From: Thermoclostridium stercorarium subsp. stercorarium DSM 8532
GTDB taxonomy: Bacteria > Bacillota > Clostridia > DSM-8532
Reading direction: 5' to 3'
DNA: 64,000 nt
Assembly (NCBI RefSeq): GCF_000331995.1
Contig: NC_020134.1
Location: 1,153,465 to 1,217,464, forward strand
Under the pieces are notes generated by a model, which saw nothing but the letters and a program-made list of their open reading frames with translations, ran no database searches and was not told the DNA's origin. The position numbers and the translations under genes were made by a program. This document shows, in pieces, positions 11,015 through 64,000 of the stretch. Position 1 is the first letter of the stretch, and each line of letters begins with the position of its first letter.

Positions 11015-11049
11015 AAACTCCAAATATTTATAAAGCGCGCGTAAAATAC

Positions 11050-11347
11050 GATGAAGGAGTCAAGTAGCCTGTTCCCGCTTTAACCAGAGAGGGGGTGCCG
11101 CTGGCTGGAAGCATCCCTTTAAATGGAGCAGTGCGAATTTCCCTCCGGAGTAGCTTCTTGAACCTGCGGCGGGGGAATTTTTACCGTATGGGCGAAGCTG
11201 CAGTAAATTCCTTCCGTTCCTGCATGAAGTAGAGAACGCCGGCTCCCACCGTTAAATGGGTAAGAGTGTACACGGGCGAATCCGTGTAAATATAGGTGGT
11301 ACCGCGGAGTGATCCAATGCTTCGTCCTATTTTCGGACGAAGCATTT
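11050..11347 (+). ncRNA. T-box leader of pheST (Phe specifier)
   Basis: A full T-box riboswitch. Stem I includes the AGAGAG bulge region (~11083-11095) and the GGAG element on its 3' side. The antiterminator carries the canonical TGGTACCGCG at 11297-11306. The terminator is AATGCTTCGTCC (11316-11327) with GGACGAAGCATT (11335-11346) and a short T-run. At the foot of stem I, opposite GTCAAG (11057-11062 region), lies TTC at 11155-11157, a phenylalanine codon in the specifier position. It fits the downstream genes: uncharged tRNA-Phe should promote antitermination. Motifs are observed; the specifier assignment is by eye. Confidence 0.93.
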
Positions 11348-16265: not shown

Positions 16266-16481
16266 ATTGCTAAATAATCGTTAAAGACGATGAAGGGGAG
16301 TAGTAGATACCCGGAACCTTTCAGAGAGCTGTTGGCCGGTGCGAAACAGCAGGGGAACGGTATTGAACTGGCCCCGGAGTTGCCGTCTGAAATCAGAGTA
16401 GGACAGGACGAAAGCCCATCGTTATCTGGGCAGGATATCGGTAGAACGCACCTGTATCTGGAAAAAGAGTGGTTAATTGAT

Positions 16482-16510
16482 CCTTCGTCTCTTTTGGCGA
16501 AGGTTTTTTT
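16482..16510 (+). terminator. First (upstream) terminator inside the leuA T-box leader
   Basis: CCTTCG (16482-16487) pairs with CGAAGG (16498-16503) with a 10-nt loop, followed by seven T residues (16504-16510). Confidence 0.75.
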
Positions 16511-16609
16511 ATAAAACGGAAAAACAAATAAAAGGCAGGGTGCATCTGCCGGTCTCCGGACGAGTGTATTCCGATAAGGAATAAAGAAGAGTGGTACCGC
16601 GGGAGAAGA

Positions 16610-16649
16610 AACCTTCCGTCTCTTTGGCAAAAGAGGCGGAAGGTTTTTT
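16610..16649 (+). terminator. Regulated T-box terminator of leuA
   Basis: A 15-bp stem (16610-16624 with 16631-16645, one G-T pair) ends in a T-run. Its 5' arm follows the TGGTACCGCG antiterminator element, the expected mutually exclusive layout. Confidence 0.9.
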
Positions 16650-52783: not shown

Positions 52784-52812
52784 TTGACATGAATAAGGTT
52801 ATGTTATATTAT
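52784..52812 (+). promoter_or_regulatory. Promoter of the GH43 genes
   Basis: TTGACA (52784-52789), a 17-bp spacer, TATTAT (52807-52812). Confidence 0.75.
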
Positions 52813-52903: not shown

Positions 52904-53884
52904 ATGCAGAATTCGAACATAAGAACAACGCCCTATAACAAGCCGCTGTTGGAACAAAGAGCCGATCCGTATATATACAGGCATACTGACGGATATTATT
53001 ATTTTACGGCCTCGGTACCGGAATATGACAGAATTATTTTAAGAAAATCTGAAACAATTAAGGGATTAAGAAATGCGGAAGAACATGTTATATGGAGAAA
53101 ACATGAAAGCGGTGAGATGAGCAAACATATATGGGCTCCGGAAATACACTACATTAATAATTCCTGGTATATTTATTTTGCGGCGGGAAAAGCCGAAAAT
53201 CAGTGGGAGATAAGACCATACGTGCTGGAGTGCAGGGATGCCGATCCTGTTGCGGGTGAGTGGAAGGAACTGGGAAAGATGCAATGTGCCGATGAGGACG
53301 AATTTTCTTTCCGCTCTTTTTCGCTGGACGGGACGGTATTTGAAAACAACGGAAAATATTATTTTGTATGGGCTGAAAAAGTGGGAGTGGGCAGACAGAT
53401 TTCAAATCTGTATATAGCCGAAATGGAAACACCGTGGAAATTAAAGACCGTGCAGGTTATGCTGTCAACCCCTGACTATGACTGGGAGCGGAGAGGATTC
53501 TGGGTGAACGAGGGACCTGCGGTTCTAAAACATGGCGAATACATATTCCTTACCTATTCGGCCAGCGATACCAGCGCCAATTACTGTATGGGAATGCTTT
53601 ATGCAAATAAAAATTCCGATTTACTGGATCCGTTGTCATGGAAGAAGTCCAGGTACCCTGTATTGGCTACCGACAGGGAAAAAGGAATTTTTGGGCCCGG
53701 ACATAACAGCTTTACAAAATCAGAAGACGGCACAAAAGATATAATGTTTTTCCATGCAAGGCAGTATGAAGAAATAATAGGTAATCCTTTATATGATCCC
53801 AACCGTCATACATTAACAATGGAAATCGGCTGGAGTGATGACGGAATGCCTGTTTTTGAGTATCAAAAACAGGTTTATGAATAA
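52904..53884 (+). CDS. Intracellular GH43 glycosidase (likely alpha-L-arabinofuranosidase)
   Basis: 326 residues, a single five-bladed GH43 propeller. The catalytic triad is readable: base Asp in EQRADPYIYRH (residue ~21), the pKa-modulating Asp in SFSLDGTVFEN, and acid Glu in WVNEGPAVLKH. No signal peptide is present, so it should act in the cytoplasm on imported oligosaccharides. GAGGGGG precedes the ATG. The next gene is an exported GH43 endo-arabinanase, which supports an arabino-oligosaccharide substrate; xylosidase activity cannot be excluded from sequence alone. Confidence 0.88.
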   Translation: MQNSNIRTTPYNKPLLEQRADPYIYRHTDGYYYFTASVPEYDRIILRKSETIKGLRNAEEHVIWRKHESGEMSKHIWAPEIHYINNSWYIYFAAGKAENQWEIRPYVLECRDADPVAGEWKELGKMQCADEDEFSFRSFSLDGTVFENNGKYYFVWAEKVGVGRQISNLYIAEMETPWKLKTVQVMLSTPDYDWERRGFWVNEGPAVLKHGEYIFLTYSASDTSANYCMGMLYANKNSDLLDPLSWKKSRYPVLATDREKGIFGPGHNSFTKSEDGTKDIMFFHARQYEEIIGNPLYDPNRHTLTMEIGWSDDGMPVFEYQKQVYE

Positions 53885-53903
53885 ATTAGCGGGGGAGTTG
53901 AAA

Positions 53904-55466
53904 ATGAGGAAAAAAATTATATTCATGCTGGCCGTCGGGGCTTTATTACTGACTGCGGCCTGCGGGAAAAGAACAGCGGGCAATGAAGTCCCGGCCGAAA
54001 CGAAGGATAATCGTGCTCAGCCTACCGGCACTGAAAGTAATGACTCGGATACAGGCGGGATTGTCATCGGAAGGGATGTTAAGTTAACTGCGGACAATCC
54101 GATTAATTACTCCTTTGCCAACGTTTCTGTTCATGATCCGTCAATAGTCGAAGACAACGGCACCTATTACATATTCGGATCCCATCTGGCGGCTGCAAAG
54201 TCAAAAGACCTTATGAACTGGGAATTAATCGGTTCGGGAGTGAACGCCTCCAACCCCATAATTCCCAATGCCCTGGAGGAAATGAGGGAGGCCTTTGAGT
54301 GGTCCAAAACCAACACTTTTTGGGCTCCTGACGTAATACGCTTAAAGAACGGAAAGTATTACATGTATTATTGCACCTGCGAAGGGAGTTCTCCTTTGTC
54401 TGCGCTGGGCGTTGCCGTATCTGACGACATTGAAGGACCGTACAGGGATCTCGGTATTATACTGAAATCGGGGATGGGATATGATATGCCCAGTGAAGAC
54501 GGAAATATGTATAATGCCAATGTGCATCCGAACGTTGTTGATCCATGTCTGTTCTATGACACTGAAGGAAGGCTTTGGATGGTATATGGCTCATATTCCG
54601 GCGGGATTTACATTCTGGAAATGGATCCCGAAACGGGTTTTCCCCTTAATAAGGGATATGGTAAAAAAATATTGGGAGGAAACCACGCACGGATTGAAGG
54701 CCCGTTTGTATTATACAGCCCTGAGACCGGGTATTATTACCTGTTTTTATCCTTCGGAGGTCTTGATTCAAAAGGGGGTTACAATATAAGGGTTGCCCGT
54801 TCGAAAAATCCCGACGGGCCGTATTATGATGCAAGCGGAAATGATATGATAAACTGCAAGGGTGCGCCGGGAACCTTCTTTCATGATCCGTCCATAGAAG
54901 GATATGGTGTCAAGCTGATGGGCGGTCACCGGTTTGCATGGATTGAGGGTGAGCAGTCGAAAATACGTTTTGGGTATCTTTCACCGGGGCATAATTCTGC
55001 GTATTATGATGAGAAGACGGGTAAGTATTTCCTCATCTTTCACACAAGATTTGAAGGCAGGGGCGAAGTCCATGAAGTTCGCGTTCATCAGTTCTTCATA
55101 AACGAGGACGGATGGCCGGTTGTGGCTCCTTACAGGTATACTGGGGAAACATTGGGAACATATACGAAAGAACAGGTAACAGGAATTTATAAATATATAA
55201 ACCATGGAAAATCCATTAACAGAGAGGCGATAGTATCTGAGTTGATTCAACTGAATGAGGATTATACGATTACGGGAGCTGTAAAAGGCACCTGGAAACT
55301 TAAAGACGACGGAAGAAGTGTTGAGATTGTCATCGGTGAAGAGGTCTATAAAGGCGTGTTCGTAATGCAGTGGGATGAATACGGAAAAAAGAATGTTATG
55401 ACTTTTACCGCTCTTTCGGATACAGGCGTTGCGATATGGGGAAGCGGTATTTGGGCCATTGAATAG
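53904..55466 (+). CDS. Lipoprotein GH43 endo-1,5-alpha-L-arabinanase (Abn2 type)
   Basis: 520 residues. The N-terminal lipoprotein signal is KKIIFMLAVGALLLTAACG, with Cys ~21. A Thr/Asn/Asp-rich linker precedes the GH43 catalytic domain (~70-430). Catalytic residues are Asp in SVHDPSIVEDNG, Asp in NVVDPCLFYDTEG and Glu in ARIEGPFVLY. The C-terminal ~100 residues (GTWKLKDDGRSVEIVIGEEVYKG) match the extra beta domain of Bacillus Abn2-type arabinanases. It should cut the arabinan backbone outside the cell. ATG 53904 follows GGGGGAG. It starts 19 bp after the previous gene and ends in a terminator, so the two GH43 genes form one unit. Confidence 0.92.
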   Translation: MRKKIIFMLAVGALLLTAACGKRTAGNEVPAETKDNRAQPTGTESNDSDTGGIVIGRDVKLTADNPINYSFANVSVHDPSIVEDNGTYYIFGSHLAAAKSKDLMNWELIGSGVNASNPIIPNALEEMREAFEWSKTNTFWAPDVIRLKNGKYYMYYCTCEGSSPLSALGVAVSDDIEGPYRDLGIILKSGMGYDMPSEDGNMYNANVHPNVVDPCLFYDTEGRLWMVYGSYSGGIYILEMDPETGFPLNKGYGKKILGGNHARIEGPFVLYSPETGYYYLFLSFGGLDSKGGYNIRVARSKNPDGPYYDASGNDMINCKGAPGTFFHDPSIEGYGVKLMGGHRFAWIEGEQSKIRFGYLSPGHNSAYYDEKTGKYFLIFHTRFEGRGEVHEVRVHQFFINEDGWPVVAPYRYTGETLGTYTKEQVTGIYKYINHGKSINREAIVSELIQLNEDYTITGAVKGTWKLKDDGRSVEIVIGEEVYKGVFVMQWDEYGKKNVMTFTALSDTGVAIWGSGIWAIE

Positions 55467-55469
55467 TTT

Positions 55470-55497
55470 GCCGGATCATTTCTGATCCGGCTTTTTT
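55470..55497 (+). terminator. Terminator of the GH43 pair
   Basis: GCCGGATCA (55470-55478) pairs with TGATCCGGC (55483-55491) around TTTC, followed by six T residues. Confidence 0.93.
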
Positions 55498-55561
55498 AAT
55501 TTTTTTGGTATTTTATAATCAATAGCTTGATTTTCTATAAAAATCAGTTAAACTCCAACAG

Positions 55562-55586
55562 TGGAAATAATTATCATGTATTTCCA
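55562..55586. promoter_or_regulatory. Inverted repeat upstream of the ABC operon promoter
   Basis: TGGAAATA (55562-55569) and TATTTCCA (55579-55586) are perfect reverse complements 9 bp apart, ending 22 bp before the -35 element. It is a possible activator site; no regulator gene is adjacent. Confidence 0.45.
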
Positions 55587-55608
55587 TGGGAATATTGCCA
55601 AAATTATA

Positions 55609-55637
55609 TTGACTTAGCATAGAATGTTGTGTATAAT
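55609..55637 (+). promoter_or_regulatory. Promoter of the sugar ABC operon
   Basis: TTGACT (55609-55614), a 17-bp spacer, TATAAT (55632-55637), leaving an AT-rich leader of ~95 nt. Confidence 0.75.
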
Positions 55638-55736
55638 CTATATAGATATTTCATAAATTTATAAATTATTTTATATTATATTTAATTTTTAAATTTAATA
55701 AAATATTTATAGTTAAAATGTATTGGTGGGGATACC

Positions 55737-58700
55737 ATGGCATTTCAAATCCGAAAAGGTTTATCCGCCGTTTTATTAGTTACCGCCATGCTGACAACCA
55801 TGGGCACCACATCAACTGATTGCGTTTCTTCAGGTTCAGCGTTTCCCGATACTTCCGACATAAGCAGAACTGATTATTTAAATAAAATCACTGCAGAAAA
55901 TTATTCATTCATAAGCAGCCGATATACGGCGGCCATGTATTCCGGAGACGTTATAGAAATTCCTGTGAATAATTCCTATATTGCTGAATTATCAGGTGGA
56001 AAACTTGTTTCGGATAATAAAGGATACAGAAATGATGTTATTGAGCTGTCACGGGGAGAATGTGCCCTGTTTTCGGTAAATGTGCCTGAAACTGCGTTGT
56101 ATTGGATAAGCTTTGACTATTATCCCAGTTCTGATTCAATTCTGCCGGTAAAGGCTTCGCTGTCGGTTAACGGCAGGATACCGTTTTATGAGGCGCAAAA
56201 CCTGGTATTTGAGAGCACCTGGATTGATAAAAAGGAAAAATCCTATGACAGATATGGCAACGAAATTGTCTCATCCCCTGAAAAACTGCCACGCTGGGAA
56301 AAAAAGTTTGTTATGGACGGAAGCTACCGTTATTCCGCCCCGTTCGCCTTTGAGCTGAAAAAAGGGGAAAACATAATTGAATTAAACATCACCGAAGGTG
56401 CTATGCTTTTAGGAAACATTTACCTTAGCGGTGAAACCAAAATTCCCGATTATTCAAAACAGGAGGCGATGGACGGAGACAGAATTATAATTATTGAAGC
56501 AGAGAGAATTGATTACAGAAATGATTCTTCAATCCGCGCCACATGCGAGTTTAATACTGCTTTGACGCCTTATGATGCGTCAAAAAAGGTGTTGAATGTA
56601 ATAGACGCCGCGTCTTTTAAAGACGCAGGCCAGACCGTTTCATATGAATTTCTTATAGATGAGCCGGGATGTTATTATATGGGTTTTGTATACAGGCAGA
56701 GCGACAAGACAGATTTCCCCGTGTTTCTGGATATCAGGATAGACGGGGAAATTCCAAACAGGCTATTGAAATCCTATCCGTTTAAATATACGAAAGATTA
56801 TACGAATTTAACACTGACTGATAATGACGGAGAGCCTGTGGCTTTGTATTTGGACAAAGGCAGACATACCATTTCGCTGACAATTAGTATAGACAATATA
56901 AGGCATGCTCTGGAAACAACCGAAAGAATTATTTCGGGTATCAACGACCTGGCGCTGGAAATTACAAAGGTAGCAGGTAGAAATAAGGATAAATACAGGG
57001 ATCTGGATTTGGTAAACTACATTCCCGATGTCCGGGAAAGGCTCCTGACATGGGCGGATGAGCTGGACGGACTGAGAAATGATTTGAGGAAGCACAACCC
57101 GAAAGTAAAAGAAATAGGTGCTTTATCCTATGCAAAAATAGCTGCGGAAAGTTTACGAAGACTTGCAAGGGAACCAAACAGAATCCCATACAGAATTGAT
57201 GAACTTGCGCAAAGCACTAATTCCGCCGTTCAGTACCTGGCTAACTTTATTGACATATTAAAGGATAACCGCCTGGCAATTGATAAAATATACATATATC
57301 AGAAGAACGCAAAACTTCCGGAAGGTATTGGTTTCTTTAAAAGCATTTATCTGAGTATTGCAAGGTTTTTCTCTTCTTTTGCCGATCAGGCGTATTCGGC
57401 CTCCAACAAGGACGAAAGCCACCTGCAGGTCTGGGTTAACCGCTCCAGGCAACATGTGGAGCTGCTTCAGAAAATGATTGATGAAAGTTTTACTCCAAAA
57501 ACCGGAATTAAAGTCGATGTCTCAATTATGCCCGATCAGGGGAAGCTTATTATGGCAAATGCAGCGGGCGACGCTCCCGATGTGGCGCAGTCGGTAAACT
57601 ATTCGGTACCTTTCGAACTGGCTATAAGAGGCGCGTTGAAGGATATAACCGAATTCGGGGATTTCAGGGAAGTTCTGACAAGGTTTGCAGACGGACTGCA
57701 TATCCCTGCGATGATAGGCGATGGAATTTATGCCGTGCCTGAAACCATCAATTTCTGGGTATTGTTTTACAGAACCGACATACTGGAAAAACTGGGGCTG
57801 GAGATACCCGAAACGGTTGAAGATGTAAAACGGATGCTTCCCGAACTTCAGATACGCGGCATGAATTTTTACTATCCCACGGCGGGCATGGGTTCGTTCA
57901 AGAATTTTCACGGAACCACTCCTTTGATTTTCCAATACGGCGGCAGTCTTTATGGAAGAACTGCAGACAATACGGCTTTGAACAGTGAAAGGACTGTTCA
58001 GGGGTTTACCGAACTTACGGAGCTTTTTACAATTTATAATCTTCCCGTGGAAGTGCCAAGTTTTTATCAGCGATTCAGAAACGGCAGCCTGCCTATAGGA
58101 ATAGCCGAGTATGGGATGTATAACCTTCTTATAAACGCCGCGCCGGAGATAGCCGGCAATTGGGATATCGCAGTTGTTCCGGGAATAGTTAATGAAAACG
58201 GCGAAATTGTAAGGTATACGTCGGGCGGTGCTGAAAGCTGTGTTATTTTCAGAAGCACTGAGGAAAGGGAAAAAATGGCGTGGGAGTATATAAAATGGTG
58301 GACGTCAAAAGAGGTGCAGGTGGAGTACGGGCAGACGCTTCAAATAACCTACGGGCCTGAATACATATGGAATACCGCCAATCTTGAAGCATTTGCCGAA
58401 CTTCCGTGGGACGCAAAACATAAAGCCGTTATAATAGAACAGACAAAATGGGTACTGGAAGCGCCAAGGCTTCCAGGAAGCTATATGACCGAAAGGGAAC
58501 TGAGCAACGCTTTCAACGCCGTTGTAGTGGACGGAAGGGACCTGAGAATTACGCTTAATACCGCCGTGAAAAGGATTAACAGGGAGACCGAAAGAAAGCT
58601 GAAAGAATTTGGGTATATGTCCCATGACGGAAAAATGATAAAGGAATATGAAGTACCTACACTCGAAAAAGTACGCCGGATATTATATGGTGAAAATTAG
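55737..58700 (+). CDS. Large extracellular solute-binding protein with N-terminal carbohydrate-binding-like domains
   Basis: 987 residues, about twice the usual size of a sugar-binding protein. An N-terminal export signal (~7-25, GLSAVLLVTAMLTTMG) has a Cys at ~29 but TSTDC is a poor lipobox. Two beta-sandwich, CBM-like modules follow: ~70-230 (ECALFSVNVPETALYWISFDYY) and ~250-400 (IIIIEAERIDYRND, then FLIDEPGCYYMGFVYRQ). A helical segment covers ~400-560. The C-terminal part (~570-985) is a family 1 binding protein: GIKVDVSIMPDQGKLIMANAAGDAPDV, GIYAVPETINFWVLFYRTDILEKLG and WEYIKWWTSKEVQVEYG. GGTGGGG precedes the ATG. It is followed 4 bp later by permease genes, so it should deliver sugar to them. 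Confidence 0.9.
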   Translation: MAFQIRKGLSAVLLVTAMLTTMGTTSTDCVSSGSAFPDTSDISRTDYLNKITAENYSFISSRYTAAMYSGDVIEIPVNNSYIAELSGGKLVSDNKGYRNDVIELSRGECALFSVNVPETALYWISFDYYPSSDSILPVKASLSVNGRIPFYEAQNLVFESTWIDKKEKSYDRYGNEIVSSPEKLPRWEKKFVMDGSYRYSAPFAFELKKGENIIELNITEGAMLLGNIYLSGETKIPDYSKQEAMDGDRIIIIEAERIDYRNDSSIRATCEFNTALTPYDASKKVLNVIDAASFKDAGQTVSYEFLIDEPGCYYMGFVYRQSDKTDFPVFLDIRIDGEIPNRLLKSYPFKYTKDYTNLTLTDNDGEPVALYLDKGRHTISLTISIDNIRHALETTERIISGINDLALEITKVAGRNKDKYRDLDLVNYIPDVRERLLTWADELDGLRNDLRKHNPKVKEIGALSYAKIAAESLRRLAREPNRIPYRIDELAQSTNSAVQYLANFIDILKDNRLAIDKIYIYQKNAKLPEGIGFFKSIYLSIARFFSSFADQAYSASNKDESHLQVWVNRSRQHVELLQKMIDESFTPKTGIKVDVSIMPDQGKLIMANAAGDAPDVAQSVNYSVPFELAIRGALKDITEFGDFREVLTRFADGLHIPAMIGDGIYAVPETINFWVLFYRTDILEKLGLEIPETVEDVKRMLPELQIRGMNFYYPTAGMGSFKNFHGTTPLIFQYGGSLYGRTADNTALNSERTVQGFTELTELFTIYNLPVEVPSFYQRFRNGSLPIGIAEYGMYNLLINAAPEIAGNWDIAVVPGIVNENGEIVRYTSGGAESCVIFRSTEEREKMAWEYIKWWTSKEVQVEYGQTLQITYGPEYIWNTANLEAFAELPWDAKHKAVIIEQTKWVLEAPRLPGSYMTERELSNAFNAVVVDGRDLRITLNTAVKRINRETERKLKEFGYMSHDGKMIKEYEVPTLEKVRRILYGEN

Positions 58701-58703
58701 GGG

Positions 58704-59624
58704 ATGAAAGCGTTGAAAACGGGAAAAAAGCTTTCAAGCAGGGAAAACAACCTTAACGCTTATGTTTTTCTGGCTCCGTACTTACTGCTGTTCCTTGTCT
58801 TTATCCTGATCCCGATTGCGATGGCAATAATGCTGTCGGTAACTAATTTTAACACCCTTGAATTTCCTGACTTTGTCGGACTGATGAATTATGTGAATTT
58901 AGTGACACAGGATGAAATTTTCATGCAGTATGTATTGCCAAATACAATAACCTACGCGCTTATAGTGGGGCCGGGAGGGTATATATTGTCGTTCCTGGTG
59001 GCATGGGCACTTTCCCAGCTGCCAAAAGTTCCGCGGACGATACTTGCCCTTGTATTCTATTCGCCGTCAATTACCTCAGGGGTGGCGATGAATGTGCTGT
59101 GGAGGATTTTGTTCAGCGGGGATCAGGCCGGATATATCAATGCGTGGCTGATTCGGCTCGGAATAATTACAGAACCTGTACAATGGCTTACCGACAAAAG
59201 ATATCTGCTTACGATAATGATTATAGTTGCGTTATGGAGCAGCATGGGCGTGGGTTTTCTTGCAATTCTCGCAGGAATCCTGAACCAGGACGAAACTCTG
59301 TACGAAGCTGCCGCAATTGACGGGGTAAAAAACCGCTTCCAGGAAGTCATATATATTACGATACCCGCAATGAAACCTCAAATGCTGTTTGCGGCGGTGA
59401 TGTCTATAGTAAACACTTTCCAGAACGGTATGATAGGCGTTCAGCTTTCGGGGGCAAATCCAACACCGGGATATGCCGGACAGCTGGTGGTGAATCATAT
59501 TGAAGACTATGGCTTTATCCGTTACGAAATGGGATACGCGTCTGCGGTTTCAGTGGTTTTGCTGCTGACGGTATATGTTTTTTCAAGAGTTTCAAAAAGG
59601 CTGTTTTCCGAAAGGGAATATTAA
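58704..59624 (+). CDS. Sugar ABC transporter permease (MalF/LplB type)
   Basis: 306 residues with six membrane segments, beginning [25 protein letters not shown]. The EAA loop, where the ATPase docks, is [27 protein letters not shown]. The start codon lies 4 bp after the binding-protein stop. It pairs with the next permease. The polysaccharide-uptake class of systems (LplB/YtcP-like) has this form; the exact substrate is unknown. Confidence 0.95.
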
Positions 59625-59641
59625 CGGGGCGGGTGGTCGGA

Positions 59642-60514
59642 ATGGCAAGGTACCGGAAAAATTATATAAATCCTAAAAGGTTCGACAGAAGCCAGATAAA
59701 AATTATGCTGATTCTTTTGCCGCTGGCTCTGTTCATGCTTCTCCCGATAGTTTTTATATTCTGCCATGCCTTCAAGCCAATGGATGAGCTGTTTGCTTAT
59801 CCTCCAAGGTTTTTTGTCATAAGGCCTACACTTGATAATTTTTATAAACTGTTTAGAACTACGTCAACGTCAGCAATTCCCATCGGCAGGTATGTATTTA
59901 ATACATTTCTGGTAACACTGACAACGGTGACCGGTTCCGTATTTATTTCCACCCTCGCGGCTTTCGCGTTATCAAAACTGAGGTTTAAGGGCAAGGTAAC
60001 CCTTATGGAAATAAACAACGCGGCATTGATGTTTGTACCTGTTTCGGTTATGATACCGAGGTACCTGATAATAAATGCCCTTGGATTAATTGATACGTAT
60101 TTTGCGCTCATTTTACCCTTAATGGCAATGCCGGTATGCTTGTTCCTGATAAAGCAGTTTACCGACCAGGTTCCCGATTCGCTGATTGAAGCGGCGTATA
60201 TTGAAGGAGCTGGTGATTTTACCGTATACCGGAGAATTATCCTTCCACTAATAAAACCGGCCGTGGCAACGGGTGCCATTCTTTCATTCCAGCAGGTATG
60301 GGGAGATGTAATGAGTTCGTCCTATTACATTTCCAATGAGACCTTAAGAACACTTCCTTTTTATATGAATACACTGACGGGTGCCGGGAATGTAATTGCC
60401 GGACAGGGAATGGCTGCGGCTGCAGGCCTTGTTATGTTCGTGCCAAATCTGGCGCTGTTTGTCATCCTGCAGAGCAATGTCATGAACACAATGGCGCATT
60501 CGGGGCTGAAGTAA
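59642..60514 (+). CDS. Sugar ABC transporter permease (MalG type)
   Basis: 290 residues, six membrane segments, with the EAA loop LIEAAYIEGAGDFTVYRRIILPLIKP. The start ATG 59642 follows GGGGCGGGTGG; a GTG at 59633 is in frame but lies inside that site. It is the second half of the transmembrane pair. No ATP-binding subunit follows, so a shared MsmX-like ATPase elsewhere in the genome is presumed, as in Bacillus oligosaccharide systems. Confidence 0.95.
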   Translation: MARYRKNYINPKRFDRSQIKIMLILLPLALFMLLPIVFIFCHAFKPMDELFAYPPRFFVIRPTLDNFYKLFRTTSTSAIPIGRYVFNTFLVTLTTVTGSVFISTLAAFALSKLRFKGKVTLMEINNAALMFVPVSVMIPRYLIINALGLIDTYFALILPLMAMPVCLFLIKQFTDQVPDSLIEAAYIEGAGDFTVYRRIILPLIKPAVATGAILSFQQVWGDVMSSSYYISNETLRTLPFYMNTLTGAGNVIAGQGMAAAAGLVMFVPNLALFVILQSNVMNTMAHSGLK

Positions 60515-60535
60515 TCGGGATATGGGGGTTTACTC

Positions 60536-62602
60536 GTGAAAAGGTTTGAAAGAAGGCTTTTGCCCAAATTAATGGCGGGTTTAATCACCTTTGCATCGGC
60601 CTTTTGGCTTAATGGGCTGTATGTGATGGCGGATATTCCGTATAAGACTTTTACGCTGGACGGGTATGGAAGGGTTGTGGAAACCCAGTCGGCGTACATA
60701 CCTGTTAAAACCATAAACAAAGTCGGTGAACATTCCTTCAGAAACGCATCGGATATGAAGATAACAGCCGACGGGGAGATTTATATAGCCGATACCGGCG
60801 GAAAAAGAATACTTGTAACCGACATCGACGGGAATTTGCTGGAAATATACGGGGAAGGGGTGCTTAATGAGCCAACGGGTATTTTCGTAACTGATGACAA
60901 GTATTTGTATGTGGCGGACAAAGGCGCGCAGAAAGTTATTGTCATGGATCGGGCCGGAAAAGTGGTCAACGAATACGCCAAACCCGATCATCCCCTTTAT
61001 GGAAAAGGTGTTGAGTTTAAACCGCAGAAACTTGTGGTGGACGCAAAAGGGATAATGTATATCATCTGCGAAGGAAATACCAACGGCATTGTTCAGATTA
61101 GTCCCGCTGGCGGCGGAACCTTTCTTGGATACTACGGAACCAATCTGACTTCGGTTACTTTCCTTGATATTTTCAGACGGGCAATACTTACAGAGGAACA
61201 GCTTGCAAAACTCCCCAAAAATCTTCCGAAAACCCCAAAGAATTTGTTTATTGATAAAAAAGGCCTTATATATACCGTTACCCAGGGTGGTTCGGAGGAC
61301 AATACCGGCCTTAGAAAACTGAATGTGGCAGGAAAAAACCTTATACAGGCGGTTTATGTGGATCCCCTTCCGTCAGCCGTTTCGGTGGGAAACTATGAGA
61401 ACATTTATGTTGTTTCTGAACAGGGATATGTATACGAATACAACAAGGACGGCAGTTTACTTTTCATATTCGGCGGAAAGGATTCGGGGCGCCTGAGGAT
61501 AGGGCTTTTTCAGAAAGCCGTCGCGGTTGACGTGGACAAAAATGACAATGTGTTTGTGCTTGACCAGGAGAAGAACGAAATCCAGGTTTTTAAACCCACC
61601 GAATTCACAAATCTGGTGCATGAAGCACTGTACCTGTACCAGTCGGGGAAATATAACGAGAGTATGCTGCCGTTACAGGAAGTACTCAGAATGAACAGCC
61701 TTTTCGATTACGCAAACCAGGCCATCGGGCAGGCATATCTTCAGGAAGGAAATTATTCGGAAGCAATGAGATATTTCAGAATGGCGAAAGACACCGCAGG
61801 GTATTCCGATGCTTACTGGGAAGTGCGCAATATCTGGCTTCAGAATAATCTTGTTACGATATTGCTGGTTTTGGTGTTAATCGGGGCATTATGGAAACTG
61901 GTTAAATCAATTCGGGAAAAGTACGGACTGTTCAGCCGTGCAGCAGCCGCAGCGGTCTCATTTAAAAACAGGCCGCTGGTATCAAGGCTTAATTACACAT
62001 GGTATTTCATCAGGCATCCGATAGACGGATGCTATGGCATAAAAATGGAAAACAAGGCCTCGTACCTGTGCGCAAATATACTTTTAACGCTGTTTATAAT
62101 CGTATTTTTGATAGATAAATACGCAACAGGCTTTATAGTAAAAACAATACCCGACGGGAGGTATAAGATTTTCTCGGATATCGGCGGAATTATAGCTTTT
62201 TTCCTGCTGCTGACCGCCTGTTCATACCTTGTCTGCGCCATCAATGACGGAGAAGCCACTTTCAGGCAGCTGTATGCGGCATATGCATACTCCCTCGGGC
62301 CGTATCTTGTTATAAAGATTTTAGTTGTGCTGTTAAGCAATGTGATAACTTATAATGAAATATTTCTGGTGGAATTTTCCAACTTTTTTCTCTATTTGTG
62401 GATTTCAGTCCTGCTTTTTATAGCGGTTAAAGAGATAAACGGTTATTCGGTAAAAGAGACGGTTAAGGTGATACTTTTGACCGCATTCTTTGCTCTGATA
62501 GTGGTGCTTCTTATCTTCATCATGTATGTGCTGACCACTCAGGTGTACGACTTTATCGAGGCGATAATCGGAGAGGCGGTGTATCGGTTTGAGAAGTCGT
62601 AA
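60536..62602 (+). CDS. NHL-propeller / TPR / Yip1-like membrane protein
   Basis: 688 residues of unusual architecture. An N-terminal signal-type helix (~11-30) is followed by an NHL-repeat propeller (~50-365): IYIADTGGKRILVTDIDGNLL, LYVADKGAQKVIVMDRAGKVV and VFVLDQEKNEIQVFKP. A TPR-like pair follows (~370-430: LVHEALYLYQSGKYNESMLPLQEVLRMN, AIGQAYLQEGNYSEAMRYFRMA), then a helix (~440-460). The C-terminal third (~510-680) has about five membrane helices, as in Yip1-type domains. The propeller is predicted outside the cell. GTG 60536 follows TGGGGGT. It is encoded in the sugar ABC operon; its job is unknown, and a surface scaffold or sensor for the importer is a guess. Confidence 0.88.
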   Translation: MKRFERRLLPKLMAGLITFASAFWLNGLYVMADIPYKTFTLDGYGRVVETQSAYIPVKTINKVGEHSFRNASDMKITADGEIYIADTGGKRILVTDIDGNLLEIYGEGVLNEPTGIFVTDDKYLYVADKGAQKVIVMDRAGKVVNEYAKPDHPLYGKGVEFKPQKLVVDAKGIMYIICEGNTNGIVQISPAGGGTFLGYYGTNLTSVTFLDIFRRAILTEEQLAKLPKNLPKTPKNLFIDKKGLIYTVTQGGSEDNTGLRKLNVAGKNLIQAVYVDPLPSAVSVGNYENIYVVSEQGYVYEYNKDGSLLFIFGGKDSGRLRIGLFQKAVAVDVDKNDNVFVLDQEKNEIQVFKPTEFTNLVHEALYLYQSGKYNESMLPLQEVLRMNSLFDYANQAIGQAYLQEGNYSEAMRYFRMAKDTAGYSDAYWEVRNIWLQNNLVTILLVLVLIGALWKLVKSIREKYGLFSRAAAAAVSFKNRPLVSRLNYTWYFIRHPIDGCYGIKMENKASYLCANILLTLFIIVFLIDKYATGFIVKTIPDGRYKIFSDIGGIIAFFLLLTACSYLVCAINDGEATFRQLYAAYAYSLGPYLVIKILVVLLSNVITYNEIFLVEFSNFFLYLWISVLLFIAVKEINGYSVKETVKVILLTAFFALIVVLLIFIMYVLTTQVYDFIEAIIGEAVYRFEKS

Positions 62603-62606
62603 AAAT

Positions 62607-64000
62607 ATGGTGCGCAAAATATTGTCCATTTTCCTTCCTGTTTTTCTGTCGGTTGTTATAAACCCAAAAGTTTCGGCATATCCGGCACAGAATGAAAAGC
62701 TCGGTCTTAAATACCGGGCAGTAATGGACGACAAACTTCCTGACGGAGTGATTTTTACTGAGCCTTCAAAAAATATAAAGGGGCATAAACTTGTTGCTGA
62801 AAGCGATAATTACCAGCTGTATTTTAAAGAGGATTCACTGTCGGTTATCGTAAGGGACAAAACAACGGGCGCGATAATGGAATCGGTTGTGGAAGGAGAT
62901 GTCCGTGGCAATGCCATTGCAGGATGGCAGAGTTTTTTAAAGTCGGGAATTGTTCTGAAACTTATAAAAGGAATTAACCTGAACCATGTAGTGGTCGGAG
63001 CAGACGAGGCTGAAAGGGATGTGAAATTAACCGGCGACGGTTTCTATGCGAAACTTTACTATGAAGAATACGGCATTGGTTTTGACGTTCATGTTTCACT
63101 TTCAGAGGATCAGCTGATTGTTGAAATTCCCAACCGGTCAATCGTTGAAGACAAAGATGAGTATAAAATAGGGGAAATATATGTTTATCCTTTTCTCGGG
63201 CATACGCATATGGGGGACAGATCGGGTTATATGCTGGTGCCCGACGGCAACGGCGCCATGATATATCTTAACGACAAGAACCGAAGATTTTCCTCGAATT
63301 ATTCTCAATATGTATATGGCAGAAATATAGGCATTGATGAACCTTATGCCCTGTCACTACTTATGAACAGGTACCAGTCGGTTAATGAAGCAGAAAATAT
63401 TATGGCACCGGTGTTTGGAATGGTACATACCGATTCAGAAATGGGGTACCTGGGAATTATAGAGAGCGGAGATTACAGCGCCAAAATAGAAGCTTATCCC
63501 AATGGTGCGTATACCGATTATAACTGGATCTGTTCGAAATTTATCCTGAGGCAGATTTATATCCAGCCCACAGGGAAAAGGGAAGGGCATGTTATTGCCA
63601 GGCAAGAGAGGCGAAATGAATTTGACATCCGCGTAAGGTACTGTTTTGTTTCGGGTGAATATGCGAATTACACAGGTTTGGCGCTGAAATACCGCGATTT
63701 TCTTCTGAAACACGGAATCGTCGTTCCCAGACATGACAATTTCAGGATTCGCCTGGATTTTCTCGGCATTGATAAAGAAAACTGGCTGATTTTCAAGCGG
63801 AATGTAACGATGACGACGGTGAACAATATAAAAGAGATTTACAAAGAACTGAAAGATGCCGGCGTAACCGATATAATTTCGGTTTACAAGGGGTGGCAGA
63901 AGGACGGGATAAATGCGCTGCCCATAGAAAAATACGCTGCCGACGGTGACATAGGGGGAAATGGAAAACTTACTGCACTGATTAGGGAATGTGAAAGCTC
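62607..64000 (+). CDS. DUF5696-like exported protein (3' end beyond the window)
   Basis: At least 464 residues are visible; the frame is open at the right edge. A signal-peptide-like start (MVRKILSIFLPVFLSVVINPKVSA, shown as hydrophobic core SIFLPVFLSVV) is followed by a beta-rich region (~55-250: LVAESDNYQLYFKEDSLSVIVRDKTTGAIM), then sequence resembling a glycosidase-like barrel (LDFLGIDKENWLIFKRNVTMTTVNNIKEIYKELKDAGVTDIISVYKGWQ). I assign it to the DUF5696 family from memory of such proteins next to sugar ABC operons. An in-frame TTG at 62589 is an alternative start overlapping the previous gene by 14 bp. Catalytic function is unproven. Confidence 0.75.
   Translation, partial: MVRKILSIFLPVFLSVVINPKVSAYPAQNEKLGLKYRAVMDDKLPDGVIFTEPSKNIKGHKLVAESDNYQLYFKEDSLSVIVRDKTTGAIMESVVEGDVRGNAIAGWQSFLKSGIVLKLIKGINLNHVVVGADEAERDVKLTGDGFYAKLYYEEYGIGFDVHVSLSEDQLIVEIPNRSIVEDKDEYKIGEIYVYPFLGHTHMGDRSGYMLVPDGNGAMIYLNDKNRRFSSNYSQYVYGRNIGIDEPYALSLLMNRYQSVNEAENIMAPVFGMVHTDSEMGYLGIIESGDYSAKIEAYPNGAYTDYNWICSKFILRQIYIQPTGKREGHVIARQERRNEFDIRVRYCFVSGEYANYTGLALKYRDFLLKHGIVVPRHDNFRIRLDFLGIDKENWLIFKRNVTMTTVNNIKEIYKELKDAGVTDIISVYKGWQKDGINALPIEKYAADGDIGGNGKLTALIRECES

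Follow-up and report, generated by a model that had tools for sequence, protein, structure and literature searches.

A predicted two-importer uptake operon with NHL-TPR-Yip1 and DUF5696 proteins beside arabinan enzymes of Thermoclostridium stercorarium

The locus

The window analysed here is a stretch of 64,000 nucleotides from Thermoclostridium stercorarium subsp. stercorarium DSM 8532 (NC_020134.1, 1,153,465 to 1,217,464; G000:C1:1153465-1217464 in our numbering, G000 being its genome, one contig of 2,974,379 bases). Its last part carries two enzymes of family GH43 followed by a sugar ABC transport operon, within which stand two uncharacterised genes, one for a protein with NHL, TPR and Yip1 parts and one for a DUF5696 protein. 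An earlier note on this DNA described a set of five transport genes and proposed that the two uncharacterised proteins form a surface assembly for long polysaccharide. The named genes stand where the note placed them; the five are real, and are the first part of an eight-gene operon, SBP1-P1-P2-(NHL-TPR-Yip1)-DUF5696-P3-P4-SBP2 (SBP, binding protein; P, permease), which the window end truncates inside the DUF5696 gene. The features are as follows:

52784..52812, + strand: promoter-like site TTGACA-17-TATTAT, 5' of the GH43 pair (11 of 12 consensus positions; a consensus match only)
52904..53884, + strand: cytoplasmic GH43 enzyme (PF04616, 231 bits; no hydrophobic segment)
53904..55466, + strand: endo-1,5-alpha-L-arabinanase, predicted surface lipoprotein (GH43 139 bits, GH43_C 106 bits; lipobox-like LTAAC)
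55470..55491, + strand: intrinsic terminator-like site 3' of the enzyme pair and ahead of the transport operon (9-pair stem with 6 G-C, then TTTTTT)
55609..55637, + strand: promoter-like site TTGACT-17-TATAAT, 5' of the transport genes (11 of 12 consensus positions; a consensus match only)
55737..58700, + strand: SBP1, a 987-residue binding protein, xloE position (SBP_bac_1, 84.9 bits at residues 575-861)
58704..59624, + strand: P1, CUT1-type permease, xloF position (BPD_transp_1, 25.5 bits against a cut-off of 26.4; UgpA-like; EAA motif)
59633..60514, + strand: P2, CUT1-type permease, xloG position (BPD_transp_1, 58.9 bits; EAA motif)
60536..62602, + strand: NHL propeller-TPR-transmembrane-Yip1 membrane protein (Yip1 43.9 bits, NHL 38.7 bits; TPR below cut-off)
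62589..63998, continuing to G000:C1:1218320, + strand: first 470 of the 755 codons of the DUF5696 protein (326.7 bits up to the window end)

The window's copy of the module (locus L004) has all eight genes in order on one strand. From SBP1 on they are spaced by 3, 8 and 21 bases and then overlap by 14, 4, 13 and 41, the last three overlaps belonging to P3, P4 and SBP2 downstream of the window end; for P3 and P4 the identification comes from their similarity to relatives. The full DUF5696 gene (L004:13054-15321) encodes 755 residues and scores 601 bits over the entire family model. A gene for a LacI-type regulator lies 3' of SBP2, before a second copy of the module.

The arabinan enzymes had been described as joined to the transport operon. 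They are adjacent to it, but GH43 pair and transport genes look, from their sequence signals, like neighbouring transcription units, because the terminator-like site at 55470-55491 and the promoter-like site at 55609-55637 separate the pair from SBP1; a single operon running from the enzymes through the transporter is not favoured, given these sites. Scans of this kind return terminator-like sites close to chance (11, against 10.2 in shuffled sequence) and promoter-like sites not far above it (37 against 27.0), so the case for two units takes its weight from the strength and position of these two sites, the terminator-like one being among the strongest. No regulator site common to the two upstream regions was found, only a few palindromes and AT-rich words.

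The arabinanase reaches 722.8 bits against NCBIfam AbnB, slightly under the cut-off of 750. Its open reading frame as listed starts at 53835, and the ATG at 53904 has a ribosome-binding-like stretch ahead of it; the lipobox-like motif makes the enzyme a predicted surface lipoprotein. By gene order rather than sequence comparison, the enzyme at 53904-55466 is probably Abn43A of Clostridium stercorarium and the one at 52904-53884 probably the alpha-L-arabinofuranosidase Arf43C, listed in PMC6106730 as AGC68111 and AGC68110, with activities on arabinan of 79.5 and 0.82 U/mg, respectively (Table 3 there). No xylan enzymes adjoin the window copy, whose neighbours are this arabinanase and the second GH43 enzyme.

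The transporter and its partners

The operon encodes a binding protein and two permeases with an EAA loop, the composition of a CUT1 importer, and the EAA motif is present in all four permeases (P1-P4). It has no ATPase gene. The only OB_MalK (MsmK/UgpC-type) ATPase match in the genome lies at C1:2875407-2875574, so the CUT1 importers of this genome probably share this one ATPase encoded elsewhere. SBP1 is about twice the usual size: roughly 550 residues precede the binding-protein domain and are covered by no Pfam model in the window protein. This part is probably composed of CBM-like sandwiches and a helical stretch ahead of the MalE-like domain; CBM6, CBM35 and GH115_C matches occur in relatives, mostly below cut-off, with one above it (L112, GH115_C, 30.2 bits). 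An AlphaFold model of SBP1 (mean pLDDT 65, pTM 0.51) matches MalE-type binding proteins; the matches listed by the fold search are binding-protein domains, none of them giving a fold for the N-terminal part. The second binding protein is unusually multiplied in genome G157, where five SBP2-like open reading frames follow P4 (L107:10525-18000).

In an alignment of 21 sequences, the NHL-TPR-Yip1 protein has an N-terminal signal-like segment, the NHL propeller, TPR-like repeats, a hydrophobic segment (433-451), a basic stretch and further hydrophobic segments with Yip1; some genomes encode the Yip1 part by a gene of its own. The likely layout, as read from these segments, has propeller and TPR outside and Yip1 in the membrane. 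The propeller, TPR and DUF5696 parts are all predicted at the surface. A simple lipobox pattern occurs in 17 of 19 SBP2 proteins like that of L004 and in none of one like that of L005; it is found in 0 of 20 SBP1 and 3 of 20 DUF5696 proteins. Because SBP1 and DUF5696 as a rule have no lipobox, we infer that the NHL-TPR-Yip1 protein docks both of them beside the permeases.

Propellers and TPRs are binding modules, and a protein that seems to be membrane-spanning, its basic loop on the inner side, might, together with DUF5696, report surface glycan and set expression or importer activity instead of taking part in capture. Such a sensor is very unlikely in our view, as domain scans find no signalling output domain in either protein and separate regulators are at hand, the LacI gene after the window operon and, according to PMC8579813, XynR and AraR in Anaerocellum (Caldicellulosiruptor) bescii, below A. 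bescii.

Co-occurrence and gene order

The two proteins were searched for in 299 genomes of the phylum. DUF5696 (Pfam) is found in 37 of them at E<=0.001, in 30 above the cut-off and in 28 at E<1e-100, the next best match being 2.2e-6. An NHL-Yip1 profile run over the same genomes matches 29 at E<=1e-30, namely all 28 strong carriers and, with a partial match (profile positions 9-193 of 681), G282. A strong DUF5696 without NHL-Yip1 occurs in none of the 299. Nine genomes with a weak partial DUF5696 (18.2-26.5 bits; G333 and G355 above the Pfam cut-off) are not counted as carriers, and none of the nine has an NHL-Yip1 match. Kinship inflates the count of co-occurrence, which by the NHL tally comes to 17 of 210 genera. 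Among 61 genomes, the 60 nearest relatives and the window's own, a search for DUF5696 only finds it at E<=0.001 in 26. The earlier note had made its idea depend on the pair recurring with such operons elsewhere, and the pair does recur.

Gene order was compared in 63 distinct loci, which cover 18 of the 28 strong-DUF5696 genomes. Three of the 63 are truncated ahead of DUF5696; in each of the other 60, NHL/Yip1, or NHL plus a separate Yip1 gene, stands directly upstream. On the other side P3-P4 come next in 62 of 63 loci, and the remaining locus stops at a contig end. A permease pair precedes NHL in 50 of the 60 (counting L068, cut after one permease); of the other ten, two are cut by contig ends, seven have no pair directly upstream and in L122 the pair has moved downstream. 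SBP2 follows P4 directly in 41 of 63 loci (counting L047 despite a spurious short reading frame), seven are cut, and 15 do not have it there, several of these with an SBP2-like gene ahead of SBP1 instead. By these counts the tightest core is NHL-Yip1, DUF5696, P3 and P4. The order is kept across many families, and on two plasmids (Paenibacillus cellulosilyticus, Butyrivibrio fibrisolvens) the genes as annotated by NCBI independently form the same run. Chance neighbourhood is rejected by the co-occurrence and by the fixed order (60/60); NHL-TPR-Yip1 and DUF5696 are probably working parts of the importer.

Near one copy of the module an Omp85/POTRA gene is found (L121:15274-17088), so that the module apparently extends to a relative with two membranes (a diderm). 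Directly 3' of the arabinan module of Lachnospiraceae lie two large genes, L046:13893-15884 (663 residues) and L052:16134-19094 (986 residues), with no Pfam match at E 1e-5; their products are candidates for new surface proteins.

The DUF5696 protein

The fold was read from the orthologue in L037, which is 77% identical to the window protein. Its AlphaFold prediction (mean pLDDT 68.9, pTM 0.70) is a middling model that is weakest in the catalytic half. GH129 stands first among the Foldseek matches listed (8rzk, E 9.2e-26); structural alignment with 5opq gives Z 23.0 and a root-mean-square deviation of 4.2 over 547 residues, and the likeness spans residues 75-763. DUF5696 thus has the GH129 fold. 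The structural matches listed also include a Flavonifractor galactosaminidase, many alpha-amylase-type barrels, a PL26 lyase and one GH36 protein.

A profile built from 21 diverse DUF5696 members likewise matches GH129 enzymes (5opq, 2.8e-14; 5wzn, 7.6e-9). The main match takes in the N-terminal sandwich plus the first strands of the barrel; it ends at profile position 491 of 762 (437 in 5opq), before the catalytic region of GH129, for which the title of 8rzk names D486 of ZgGH129; just 8.4 bits more come from a C-terminal stretch. Searched by itself, the second half gives no significant match to solved GH129 proteins (E 0.44 over 57 C-terminal positions), so that similarity does not run through the catalytic half. 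The Pfam family GH129 (PF11308) is unlisted for four DUF5696 members at E up to 10, where HMMER filters can hide weak matches. As an anchor for aligning catalytic residues PF11308 was uninformative: it had no match in the 299 genomes, and its controls were blank too.

Catalytic residues were surveyed in the DUF5696 hits themselves, 71 of 110 being kept after removal of duplicates and short reading frames. No aspartate or glutamate of the barrel is strictly invariant among the 71. E650 (L004 numbering), which stands before the last strand and is taken as structural, carries an acidic residue in 70. At the putative beta-4 position, placed like beta-5 by sequence alignment and strand order rather than by superposition on the GH129 residues, 24 of 71 members have D, and at the putative beta-5 position 31 of 71 have E or D. 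In the arabinan clade the beta-4 residue is G, coming after S, A, G or N, while its beta-5 residue is E, Q or D; the mannan copy of the window's genome (L005) has D at beta-4.

These residues bear on whether DUF5696 could be an active extracellular GH129-like glycosidase, anchored by NHL-Yip1, that trims side chains or ends at the importer mouth. The fold and the significant profile match speak for such an enzyme, as do the GH129 label given to the A. bescii protein in PMC8579813 and the beta-4 and beta-5 acids, the former present in the genome's own mannan copy; a GH129 protein of Paenibacillus O199, which may or may not be a DUF5696 protein, is, moreover, reported in PMC4867992 together with GH130 and CBM35 proteins only in growth on crystalline cellulose, a set resembling that of the mannan copy. 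Against it stand the end of the main match before the catalytic half, the absence of an invariant barrel acid, the glycine at beta-4 in the arabinan clade and, within the limit set by the filters, the unlisted PF11308. We regard an active enzyme as doubtful. Most likely, judging by these alignments, the DUF5696 of the arabinan clade is a non-catalytic, GH129-derived holder or guide of glycan. The GH129 label on proteins of this type may overstate their enzyme activity. Of the two functions that the earlier note had offered, capture fits this clade better than processing, because the glycosidase-like barrel seems to have no conserved catalytic pair.

Copies and substrates

The window's genome has three copies of the module. 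The second is complete (L005:365-13433; G000:C1:1223364-1236432) and starts about 1.5 kb after SBP2 of the window copy; NHL and Yip1 are two genes in it, and GH26-CBM35 and GH130 genes (mannan) follow. Counting genes, and assuming consecutive numbering of those in between, the GH26 gene comes out as AGC68130, the number of Man26A in PMC6106730, for which Table 3 gives 39.9 to 216 U/mg on mannans. The third copy (L006:5487-13681; G000:C1:739486-747680) is decayed, with broken frames in SBP1, DUF5696 and P3, and P2 was not found in it. It adjoins intact GH10 and double GH43-CBM6 genes on the xylan side, a pair that by position, rather than by sequence comparison, fits Xyn10B (AGC67715) and Axh43A (AGC67716) of the same paper. 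Genome G002 of the same genus also has an arabinan-type (L059) and a mannan-type (L060) copy.

Gene by gene, L004 and L005 are 28-46% identical, while L004 and the arabinan copy of an Anaerolineaceae-labelled metagenome-assembled genome are 43-72% identical. Of the proteins of L004 and L005, P1 shows the highest identity (46%); the lowest is 28%, for DUF5696 over 648 residues and for SBP2 over 213. For DUF5696 this divergence fits a substrate-facing place. It also bears on another explanation, by which the two genes would aid assembly of the four permease subunits, as a Yip1-type membrane factor and a chaperone-like partner that never touch sugar. The strict linkage to P3-P4, which holds even where SBP1-P1-P2 is not upstream, would suit an assembly factor; that DUF5696 diverges as far as a binding protein suits a substrate-facing part better, and we consider the assembly function unlikely.

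Subfamilies of DUF5696 follow the neighbouring hydrolases: arabinan for the window copy, mannan for L005 and xylan for A. bescii. The tree has 60 rows (L059 left out as a duplicate of L037, L055 as too short), with SH-aLRT support only and several long branches unsure. Twenty-nine loci could be labelled (arabinan 15, mannan 7, GH16 3, xylan 2, GH9 1, GH35 1), and these six classes require five changes on the tree, the minimum, against a mean of 13.0 and a smallest value of 8 in 500 shuffles. Adding two weaker labels (L064, GH10 at 91 bits; L066, GH130 at 115 bits) leaves five changes for 31 loci (shuffles: mean 14.6, smallest 11). L057, with GH9 and a GH10-like hit, is labelled GH9; recoded as xylan (31 loci) it still gives five changes, the minimum then being four. 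The arabinan clade is over-represented, since its members were retrieved for their likeness to the window protein: 20 loci were obtained in this way, 15 with an arabinan-type GH43 or GH51 gene in the flank and 5 with none. With the fetched loci removed, 17 loci give five changes (shuffles: mean 8.6, smallest 6). Depending on the labels, 30 to 31 of the 60 rows are unlabelled. We infer that the window module is an arabinan-specific copy.

Comparison with known systems

In part the module is already published. PMC8579813 (Rodionov et al. 2021) describes the xylan degradation locus of A. bescii, an operon xloEFG-X-GH129-axoFGE-xynF..., as induced about 4- to 100-fold on xylan; it has the same eight genes as the window module, in the same order. 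Our copy L119 (genome G222) has the XynR operator published for this locus (PMC12285236) at L119:1706-1725, 150 bases ahead of SBP1, and is taken for this reason as A. bescii Athe_0174 onward. By position, 'X' is the NHL-TPR-Yip1 protein and 'GH129' the DUF5696 protein. The proteins are 29-49% identical to those of the window copy, SBP2 aligning over 48 residues only, and the neighbours differ, xylan enzymes there and arabinan enzymes here. The same paper reports that growth on oligo- and polysaccharides requires the common ATPase MsmK. Two transporters are named in PMC8579813 and PMC12285236, and no role is given to X or GH129 in the parts of these papers at hand. The statement of the earlier note that the two proteins have no known part in uptake holds in that we found no function for them in the literature; both are, at the same time, encoded inside a published xylan-induced uptake locus.

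Like the CUT1 importers that use a common MsmK/MsmX ATPase, the window operon has a binding protein and two EAA permeases and no ATPase gene. It differs from the typical ones by two permease pairs and two binding proteins per operon, an oversized SBP1 and the two constant accessory proteins; the module is CUT1 import with two accessory proteins added. With GH129 enzymes (NagBb of Bifidobacterium bifidum, ZgGH129 of Zobellia galactanivorans) DUF5696 shares the fold and the profile similarity of its first part, and it departs from them in having no visible conserved catalytic pair, in the signal lost over the catalytic half and in the lack of a listed PF11308 match.

By analogy only, SusC/SusD of Bacteroidetes are likewise a set of surface proteins beside an endo-hydrolase ahead of an importer; unlike them, the window module is ABC-driven, and no TonB-dependent receptor (SusC-like) or SusD-like protein was matched among those operon proteins that were Pfam-scanned. 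To our knowledge, how Gram-positive fibre degraders retain long oligosaccharides at the surface and hand them over is poorly understood compared with Bacteroidetes.

Interpretation

The gene set, its order, the co-occurrence, the fold of DUF5696 and the subfamilies that track hydrolases are observed directly, and the finding is real, general and larger than first described. We read the locus as the arabinan copy of a conserved uptake module in which two constant surface partners serve two CUT1 importers, with a probability of roughly 55%. The surface lipoprotein arabinanase would cut arabinan, and the released chains would be held by SBP1, through the CBM-like domains ahead of its MalE-like domain, and by the DUF5696 barrel. 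The NHL-TPR-Yip1 protein, propeller and TPR facing outward, would dock both next to the permeases. Oligo-arabinosides would then enter through the two importers (SBP1-P1-P2 and P3-P4-SBP2), which would rely on a MalK/MsmK-type ATPase from another locus, and be finished in the cytoplasm by the GH43 enzyme. The surface assembly proposed earlier is to this extent supported, with the surface location predicted and the idea upheld as far as comparison reaches; as an interpretation it is partly supported.

Several observations weigh against this reading of the locus. Conserved gene order alone does not prove a physical complex. The acidic residues at beta-4, beta-5 and E650 mean that some DUF5696 clades could be enzymes, and both the placing of the first two positions and the middling model weaken the claim of a non-catalytic barrel. 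The seven loci without SBP1-P1-P2 directly upstream (L066, L108-L111, L115, L116) form one clade on the DUF5696 tree, with a longer DUF5696 of about 950-990 residues, and have NHL-Yip1 and DUF5696 with P3-P4 only (in L115, cut by a contig end, P3-P4 is not seen); the two proteins may therefore serve P3-P4 only. The Paenibacillus plasmid copy (L131, NZ_CP054609.1 79372-105444) is surrounded by genes for LLM-class flavin oxidoreductases and a ugpC ATPase, not glycoside hydrolases, so not every copy need serve polysaccharide. At many loci, none of the hydrolases searched for could be recognised as a neighbour. Binding, cleavage or interaction data for these proteins were not found in the literature, nor was a paper on the generality of the module or the function of NHL-TPR-Yip1 and DUF5696, subscription papers being mostly outside the scope of this search.

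A further step is tentative and less likely than not: the NHL-TPR-Yip1 and DUF5696 proteins may form a membrane-anchored platform that receives glycan, with a retired GH129-type glycosidase as holder, that serves two ABC importers at once as a functional Bacillota counterpart of SusCD, and that is re-used, by change of subfamily, for arabinan, mannan and xylan and probably for beta-glucan and galactan.

Two unexplained proteins found together in 28 of 299 sampled genomes, and at a fixed operon place in the loci compared, make a defined and testable set, and one of them, DUF5696, now has a fold, that of GH129. The substrate of an unassigned copy can be guessed from its DUF5696 subfamily. The window's genome offers a built-in comparison, with arabinan and mannan copies side by side and a decayed copy beside xylan enzymes.

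Elsewhere in the window, two T-box leaders are present (11042-11332 and 16281-16626), with no relation to the module.

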